Shown one piece after another: positions 1,184 through 28,762 of a DNA stretch of 64,000 bases. This stretch comes from a bacterium. GTDB lineage: Bacteria > SZUA-79 > Acidulodesulfobacterales > Acidulodesulfobacteraceae. Location: positions 1-64,000 of the forward strand of contig JAJZJX010000001.1 of assembly GCA_021850985.1 (NCBI GenBank), given 5' to 3'. The notes below the pieces were generated by a model, which saw only the letters and a list, made by a program, of their open reading frames with translations, made no database searches and was not told the origin of the DNA. The position numbers were made by a program, and so were the translations under genes. The stretch's first letter is position 1. The number at the start of each line of letters is the position of its first letter.

Positions 1184-1264
1184 ATTTATAGATTAATATA
1201 ATGCAATATAAATTTAAAAGTAAAAGCTGTGCTTTGTGCTTTTTTAATATTTATATTTATATAT

Positions 1265-1483
1265 TACCTTAAATCACCGTTAGAAATTTTATTTTCTGCA
1301 TAAACGGCATGCGTTTATATCCGCTTACGCGGGAATGACAATGCGTGATTTTAACTTTTCACCCAACGGGTGTCATTCCCGCGAAAGCGGGTACGTTTTA
1401 AAGCCGTCAGTATTTAGACGGCTCATCCAGTATTTATTATATGTTGAAACAATTTTAATAGTTTCTAACGGTGATTTAAGGTA
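1265..1483. repeat. MITE-like element with 22-bp perfect terminal inverted repeats
   Basis: The 22 bases at 1265-1286 (starting TACCTTAAATCACCG) are the exact reverse complement of 1462-1483. Between them is a nested inverted pair built on the ATTCCCGC...GCGGG motif (about 1318-1340 and 1368-1392). There is no transposase gene inside, and the 219-bp size with perfect ends is what a miniature inverted-repeat transposable element looks like. No clear target-site duplication was identified beyond AT-rich flanks. It lies about 90 bp upstream of the MNT gene. Confidence 0.65.
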
Positions 1484-9712: not shown

Positions 9713-9732
9713 ATTCCCGCTTTCGCGGGAAT
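9713..9732. repeat. ATTCCC-N8-GGGAAT palindromic repeat
   Basis: ATTCCCGCTTTCGCGGGAAT is a perfect 20-bp palindrome, preceded by GG and followed by GACAT. Related copies lie inside the MITE-like element (1375-1392, and a variant near 1320-1338). The form ATTCCC-N8-GGGAAT is the same as the dRS3 repeats described in Neisseria. It lies between the MBL gene and the phosphohexomutase stop. Confidence 0.6.
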
Positions 9733-9760
9733 GACATATAATATATATTATTGTTTTTGT

Positions 9761-27832: not shown

Positions 27833-28762
27833 ATGAAAAAAAACAAAGTTCTTGCTTATTCGGAATACATTTTAGTATATTCTTTTTACTCATTTTTAAA
27901 TATACTGTCTCAGGGCTTGTCTTTAAAAATCGGCAGATTTCTCGGACTCCTATTTTATAAAATCGACAAAAAGCATAGAAAACATACCTTAAATAACCTA
28001 AAAATAGCATTTCCGTTTAAAACAGAAAAAGAACGGGACGATATAGCAATAAAATTTTATAAAAATCTCGGCATGGTGTTCGTCGAAATTTTCAGGCTAA
28101 ATAAATATAATGAAAGCAATATCGACGATTTCGTCGAATCCGATTTTGAAAATATTAAAAATATATACGGCGGTCAGGGAGTGCTTTTGCTTACCGCTCA
28201 CTTCGGAAACTGGGAACTTCTTGCAAAAACCTTTGGGCTGAAAGGCTATAAAGGCAACGTACTTGCAAGACCGCTCGATAATCCTTATATAGAAAAAATT
28301 TTATACAATTTAAGAACCGCTTCAGGAAACAAAGTTATATACAATAGGGAAAATGCCGTAAAAAATATAATTTCGGCGTTAAACGCCAACGAAATCGTCG
28401 GATTTCTGCCGGACGAAAATGCCTCCAAGCGCATAGGCGTTTTCGCCGATTTCTTCGGCGTTAAAGCCTGCACTATGCCGGGTATGGCAAATATCGCCGC
28501 AAAAACTAAACTTCCCGTCGTTCCCGCTTTTATCGTTAGAATTAATAACAATAACGTAAAGGATAAAAAATACGGAAATTACTCAAAACACCGCCTTATA
28601 ATAGAACCCCCCTTAGACATTAAATATACCGGCGACAGAAAGACGGATACCATGAATATTCTTAAGCTGTTTAATGAAAAAATCGAAGATATAATTAAGC
28701 AATATCCAGAACAGTGGTTCTGGATACACAACAGATGGAAAACAAGGCCGGAAGAGGAATAA
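27833..28762 (+). CDS. LpxL/HtrB-type lipid A lauroyl acyltransferase family
   Basis: A 309-residue acyltransferase with the catalytic HFGNWELL (about 123-130) and later VGFLPDENA and PVVPAFIVR segments, ending IKQYPEQWFWIHNRWKTRP, the typical LpxL/M signature. It adds a secondary acyl chain to Kdo2-lipid IVA. One N-terminal hydrophobic segment should anchor it to the inner membrane. It is 62 bp downstream of lpxK. Which chain it adds (LpxL or LpxM) cannot be told. Confidence 0.88.
   Translation: MKKNKVLAYSEYILVYSFYSFLNILSQGLSLKIGRFLGLLFYKIDKKHRKHTLNNLKIAFPFKTEKERDDIAIKFYKNLGMVFVEIFRLNKYNESNIDDFVESDFENIKNIYGGQGVLLLTAHFGNWELLAKTFGLKGYKGNVLARPLDNPYIEKILYNLRTASGNKVIYNRENAVKNIISALNANEIVGFLPDENASKRIGVFADFFGVKACTMPGMANIAAKTKLPVVPAFIVRINNNNVKDKKYGNYSKHRLIIEPPLDIKYTGDRKTDTMNILKLFNEKIEDIIKQYPEQWFWIHNRWKTRPEEE

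Follow-up and report, generated by a model that had tools for sequence, protein, structure and literature searches.

A miniature inverted-repeat element with a CGTC-1-type REP pair inside, probably mobilised by an IS1380-family transposase

A 215-bp palindromic element near the start of the DNA analysed here is very probably, judging from its sequence and that of its copies, a non-autonomous miniature inverted-repeat transposable element (MITE) that would be moved in trans by an IS1380-family transposase and that carries a head-to-head pair of CGTC-1-type REPs as cargo. MITEs are a known kind of element; the value of this one lies in linking CGTC REPs to IS1380 transposases. The window, the whole stretch of 64,000 nucleotides, is contig C44 (1-64000) of a draft genome of 1.9 Mb in 84 contigs that is 81% complete.

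Structure of the element

The original prediction described 219 bp with perfect 22-bp ends. Complementarity is indeed perfect over 22 bp (arms 1265-1286 and 1462-1483); the element itself is 215 bp (1267-1481) with perfect terminal inverted repeats (TIRs) of 20 bp, CCTTAAATCACCGTTAGAAA, and the outer TA on either side belongs to a 5-bp target duplication, TATTA (Table 1). It sits between an ORF ending at 853 and one starting at 1574 and is non-coding, as the sole ORF of more than 80 aa that touches it (1335-1610) extends beyond the element. The strand from 1262 to 1486 folds with z = -11.0 as DNA and -12.5 as RNA, a stability equalled by none of 200 shuffles for either. Together with the genome-wide occurrence of the 22-mer described below, these scores indicate that the ends are not a chance pairing.

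The nested palindrome of the prediction resolves into two inverted CGTC-type REP hairpins with one further hairpin on either side. The ATTCCCGC repeats noted there are present; their identity as REPs had been missed, as had the duplication, the IS1380 partner and the fact that copies exchange hairpin modules. The right REP reads TGTC-ATTCCCGC-GAAA-GCGGG. Both REP tails are displaced by hairpin cassettes in the window copy, and the full tail, GCGGGAATCCAG, is found in the copies on contigs C12, C10 and C25.

Table 1. Features of the window element and its flanking duplication
Feature	Position	Strand
Target duplication, left copy, TATTA	1262..1266	
Left 20-bp TIR, CCTTAAATCACCGTTAGAAA	1267..1286	+
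Minimal CAT...ATAT hairpin, 22 nt, apex GCATGC	1299..1320	+
CGTC-1-type REP hairpin, left member of the head-to-head pair	1321..1340	-
Spacer between the two REP heads	1341..1370	
CGTC-1-type REP hairpin, right member; TGTC head, ATTCCCGC stem, GAAA loop	1371..1391	+
Hairpin cassette in the REP tail, stem AGCCGTC/GACGGCT at 1402-1423; on the other arm in other copies	1392..1424	
Right 20-bp TIR, identical to the left	1462..1481	-
Target duplication, right copy, TATTA	1482..1486	

Copies and target-site duplications

Further copies, target-site duplications and full transposons with the same ends had all been proposed as checks on the prediction, and all three were found. A pattern search for the 22-bp end with at most 3 mismatches identified 21 places in the source genome, against none for a reversed-pattern control. 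Sixteen of these ends pair into eight elements of 107-264 bp, namely the window copy, one each on C12, C36, C37, C66 and C13, and two on C81; the other five are no more than 200 bp from the end of a contig, which cuts the element off. More copies occur in relatives. Five of the eight source-genome copies, that in the window among them, have an exact 5-bp duplication, the one on C36 is one base off, and both C81 copies have none. No clean empty site was found for the window copy; its right flank is present in genomes G005 and G015, where the left flank is unrelated.

Duplications were counted over 135 sequences, these being the window stretch and 134 fetched sequences selected from the matches listed. 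Any pair of ends with at most 5 mismatches from one of four TIR types was taken as an element, and duplications were ignored in picking. Among the resulting 76 elements (which include a deletion derivative of an insertion sequence at L142, a row of L236, 233-637, covering two elements at once, and weak rows at L179 and L269), an exact 5-bp repeat flanked 40 and was absent in 36, whereas pairing the flanks of different elements gave an expectation of 1.7. Repeats of 2, 3, 4, 6 and 7 bp flanked 19, 5, 1, 5 and 1 of the 76, respectively. The A+T content of the 5-bp repeats was 91%.

A probable IS1380-family partner

The expectation that the window holds no transposase with matching ends is in line with a motif search: a 13-bp end motif (at most 2 mismatches) occurs only at both ends of the element and at 27987, the last with 2 mismatches and at chance level. 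Full insertion sequences (IS) with the same ends are present in relatives and belong to the IS1380 family. One of these, in a sister genome (G005:C47:2801-4419), is 1619 bp long, and its ends match the window TIR at 20/20 and 19/20 positions; its 419-aa product scores 224.5 bits against the IS1380 model NF033539 (cut-off 180) and 116.7 against PF13701. This element does not have a perfect duplication (TTATT/TAATT), and for that reason we stop short of a firmer statement on the MITE. Additional IS copies whose ends are identical or almost so were found at L151, L152 and L154. PF13701 matched in 7 of 26 genomes, in 6 of them above the cut-off.

With PF13701 as the query, the source assembly gave no match to an intact IS1380 transposase. 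Five of its contig ends carry IS ends. In two of them, on C60 and C84, the contig breaks off within the transposase-side end of an IS of the G005:C47 kind; in the other three (C73, C22 and the opposite end of C84) it stops inside an end that resembles the far end of that IS. Two of the five share ACATC, and joining the flanks of this C84/C73 insertion with one copy of ACATC leaves a frame open across the junction. The contig ends and this junction suggest that an autonomous partner is, or recently was, present in the source genome and was lost to assembly.

A 642-bp deletion derivative of the same IS1380 element, with the duplication TAATA, lies at L142 (G008:C99), and it carries a CAT hairpin (see below) at its deletion. 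Read by eye, the interior of the window MITE has no IS sequence beyond the ends, so that it is not derived by internal deletion from any of the IS copies seen.

We propose that a full-length insertion sequence elsewhere would make an IS1380-family DDE transposase, that this enzyme would recognise the 20-bp ends and move the MITE in trans, as the matching ends suggest, and that insertion would leave an A/T-rich 5-bp target duplication. The classification as a MITE is supported by the multiple copies, the 5-bp duplications and the complete insertion sequences in relatives whose ends are the same; the window element is itself short, bounded by TIRs, non-coding, copied at unrelated sites and flanked by a target duplication.

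Four end types with a shared interior

The window type of end, T1, accounts for 43 of the 76 elements, and T3 (CCCAAATCCCGATTTAGAAA), T2 (CCCAAAATTGCCGATAGAAA) and T4 (CCTTAATCCTGCATTAGAAA) for 17, 10 and 6. IS1380 elements of the genus with matching or closely similar ends were found at L130, L151 and L152 for T1 and at L131 and L139 (broken) for T3. For T2 they lie at L132, L133 and L135, with a good match at one end while the other reads CTATAATTTGCCGATAGAAA or similar, and L134 has T4-like ends and the duplication GTTAA. Transposase identity is 24-39% between end types and 72-98% within them; the values for the L152 and L151 transposases, which contain 8 and 1 stops in the frame read, are rough. 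At L131 a T3 MITE directly adjoins the T3 IS, and the target sequence CTTTA is common to both.

All four MITE types have the same kind of interior, also within the source genome (C25 for T2, C78 for T3, C10 for T4). It may be that the four end types and the interior descend from one ancestral MITE, with ends that drifted along with diverging IS1380 transposases, a history that we regard as possible while holding the odds somewhat against it. The stretch just inside the left end (about GAAATTTATTTTTCTGG) is similar in all four types, as descent would have it. However, hairpin modules are common to different end types within one genome, and they change arms between near-identical copies. On C81 the two copies agree at 163 of 166 aligned bases, and the AGCCGTC-type hairpin cassette occupies the left arm in one and the right arm in the other; the window and C37 copies differ by one base and one hairpin tip. 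The shared modules and the arm swaps imply that some exchange of interiors occurs. Common descent and interior exchange are compatible and not exclusive, and hairpin cassettes that enter or swap on REP arms would alter the MITE interior further.

REP units inside and outside the elements

The interior of the window MITE is a head-to-head REP pair that fits the CGTC-1 description in the portions of Di Nocera et al. 2013 (PMC3733652) consulted. At no more than 3 mismatches the source genome has 36 REP units (control, 1), arranged as 12 head-to-head pairs and 12 singles. TIR-bounded elements enclose ten of the 12 pairs; of the remaining two, one (on C7) has an apparent decayed end on one side, and one (C8:31306) has none. 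The singles comprise two in TIR-bounded elements (C36 and C75:30313), two beside a lone or weak end (C84 and C9) and eight that are free as judged by eye within 170 bp. One single CGTC REP without surrounding MITE ends lies in the window at 9713-9735.

From the 10 of 12 pairs inside TIR-bounded elements we infer that MITE hopping spread the REP pairs, most of which would have reached their places in the source genome by riding in MITEs of the four end types. No dedicated transposase is reported for CGTC REPs in the available sections of Di Nocera et al. 2013 (PMC3733652), where the mover is left open. The location of most REP pairs in MITEs with IS1380-type ends offers a concrete and testable answer to what moves them: hitch-hiking. 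The same source, in part, places CGTC-1 dimers of H. neapolitanus within 41-bp palindromes (PMC3733652), which are perhaps a similar case.

An opposite arrangement, with the palindromic core as the mobile unit, would have the REP pair moved by a Y1 (RAYT) transposase and the outer repeats arise as a by-product. REPs free of TIRs do occur (the C8:31306 pair and the eight singles), and Y1 transposase genes are present in 16 of 25 genomes searched. Nevertheless we consider this origin improbable, and for the whole element it is largely refuted: the exact 5-bp duplications sit at the TIR boundaries, the source assembly has no Y1 match, and minimal MITEs free of a REP pair (107 bp at L067, 86 bp at L202 and 71 bp within L236) all have exact duplications. 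As a candidate mover Y1/RAYT was also rejected at its own loci, as none of the nine same-genus loci examined (24 matches were listed, and 1.8-3.4 kb were fetched) contained a CGTC REP. A host function for the outer palindrome as an immobile local structure, such as a terminator or RNA processing site, is hardly credible and is refuted as the whole story by the many copies at unrelated sites with duplications, although the fold far exceeds that of shuffles, one terminator-like stem is present at 1378-1391 (0.3 expected), and a secondary regulatory effect is possible.

A family of CAT hairpins

At the tip of the 22-nt hairpin of the window type, the C37 copy of the MITE carries in place of CATGC a 54-nt hairpin that starts with CAT and ends with ATAT. 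The apex AAAGACATGCTTT occurs in 12 of the 16 genomes of the genus and in 13 of all 25 genomes; the sole match outside the genus (L320) is not surrounded by an evident hairpin. Alignment of 23 canonical members of 49-54 nt, all distinct and chosen by eye from hairpin-finder output, gave fixed CA and ATAT ends and a near-fixed apex, RCATGC, and the shape includes a one-sided bulge of about four bases. The finder also returned 23 hits on shuffled sequence, so that long members (80-95 nt) are mostly chance. Of the 17 stem pairs, 14 change on both sides, and 91 cells covary compared with 28.5 in shuffles (0 of 500), a count that may be too high if one arm of a DNA palindrome is corrected to match the other.

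A covariance model (E 0.01, strict filters) matched in 27 of 30 genomes of the bacterial family and in none of 31 others, with 14 matches in the source genome and 56 in G004; the three family members that gave no match are G017, G018 and G041. Five of the nine source-genome matches listed lie within MITEs and four elsewhere, and CAT hairpins are also found inside IS1380 genes and other genes of relatives. At L397 (G042:C53) one breaks a transposase-like gene after the residues GHLW; this gene is presumably an IS200-type transposase. Nine CAT hairpins (L380-L388, four in the source genome and five in G015) mostly have AAAAAGGAGGGG after them and, before them, GC-rich repeats with CACC or a similar sequence at the end, an arrangement that is perhaps another composite repeat.

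An Rfam search of eight loci gave a tRNA in L336 as the only match above gathering threshold; weak matches, among them MIR3627 on the L061 element with 25.5 against a gathering value of 64, were judged to be chance. Exact searches of viral contigs returned neither the 20-nt hairpin apex nor the TIR. The listed results of a literature search contained no description of CAT hairpins, and the family may be new.

Replacement of five bases

Eight sites were picked by hand where an empty copy was available, with hairpin ends set by the CAT/ATAT rule and with L142 and L325, which have larger changes beside the hairpin, left out; in all eight of these comparisons a hairpin of 22-54 nt occupies the position of exactly 5 nt in the empty copy. 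A letter-by-letter check covered seven of them; the remaining one (L396 and L152) has a few flank mismatches. The replaced bases are CATGC, GATTC, ATTCC (three times), CTTTC, CATTC and ACTGC, all of which fit NNTNC, and they are not independent targets, since the three ATTCC lie at REP arms and GATTC overlaps ATTCC. Three comparisons (L062/L061, L131/L187 and L336/L187) set different repeat copies side by side rather than the same site, and two come from a single pair, L203/L204, MITE copies of one genome that are identical at 159 of 165 aligned bases. Between L400 and L401 the hairpin makes a net difference of +45 nt in a 710-aa open frame of G019, where the G022 frame has 664 aa and CATTC. 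This in-frame hairpin (L395/L400; G019:C4:26174-26223) lies in a long gene, and at the same position G024 has CTTTC.

We tentatively suggest, at a little under even chances, that CAT hairpins are a new mobile palindrome (49-54 nt, 5'-CAT, 3'-ATAT, apex RCATGC) whose insertion replaces five bases, NNTNC; the caution reflects the hand-chosen sites. Their own apex, CATGC, fits this target, so that mobile hairpins would be expected to nest in one another. They would likewise enter REPs, MITEs, IS1380 genes and open reading frames, perhaps moved by a structure-reading enzyme, for which a recombinase, an HUH nuclease or repair-coupled template switching are candidates. Alternatively, arms may be exchanged between palindromes by recombination or template switching. 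The five-base comparisons give a difference, the direction of which could be hairpin gain or loss. Because near-identical copies exist with and without the hairpin, the way in which a small structured DNA replaces five bases is directly testable.

Surroundings of the window element

Upstream of the MITE, a 36-nt CRISPR-like repeat, GTCGCAATCCCTTATAAATCAGGGATATATTCTTAC, is present once, as an exact copy, at positions 989-1024. It recurs many times at a spacing of about 75 bp in G005:C107, G014:C10 and G004:C36; the source genome matched this region only at the window itself. Downstream, two ORFs (1574-2368) encode what we take, from reading them, to be an MNT nucleotidyltransferase and its HEPN partner, and the pair recurs in G005:C107 and G015:C25.

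Comparison with known systems

Sections of two sources (PMC4133298 and PMC3542288) contain no description of an IS1380 MITE, which does not prove its absence from print; the word IS1380 has no occurrence in a MITE review (PMC10969869), and a text search of the literature for the REP motif returned nothing relevant.

The window MITE shares its ends with the 1619-bp element of the sister genome, whose product exceeds the NF033539 cut-off, and this places its partner in the IS1380 family. ISEcp1, a member of that family, produces 5-bp duplications at AT-rich targets according to portions of PMC7527135 and PMC2887853, much as the window-type MITEs have A/T-rich 5-bp duplications. In contrast to IS1380 insertion sequences, the MITE is non-coding and its interior, compared by eye, is unlike the IS past the 20-22-bp ends.

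NEMIS/Correia, RUP, Nezha, Chunjie and ERIC, named in parts of PMC3733652 and PMC10969869, are likewise small, non-coding, multicopy and TIR-bounded; they belong with another transposase family. Rickettsia palindromic elements resemble the CAT hairpins in being palindromic, dispersed and able to lie in ORFs (with L400 as the one clear case among the hairpins), a likeness drawn from their description in part of PMC10969869. There they are about 150 bp long, whereas CAT hairpins have 49-54 nt, fixed ends and apex, and a 5-nt replacement; the likeness is partial, and the size does not agree.

In GTAG REP/RAYT systems the repeats flank the Y1 gene, whereas none of the nine loci here showed this arrangement. 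The closest likeness of the interior is to CGTC-1 REPs, among which Di Nocera et al. 2013 place dRS3 of Neisseria. As far as the portions of that paper (PMC3733652) describe them, both have a TGTC head, an 8-bp stem with A-T first, a 4-nt loop, a CCA tail and head-to-head pairs; the difference is that most pairs in the source genome lie inside TIR-bounded MITEs.
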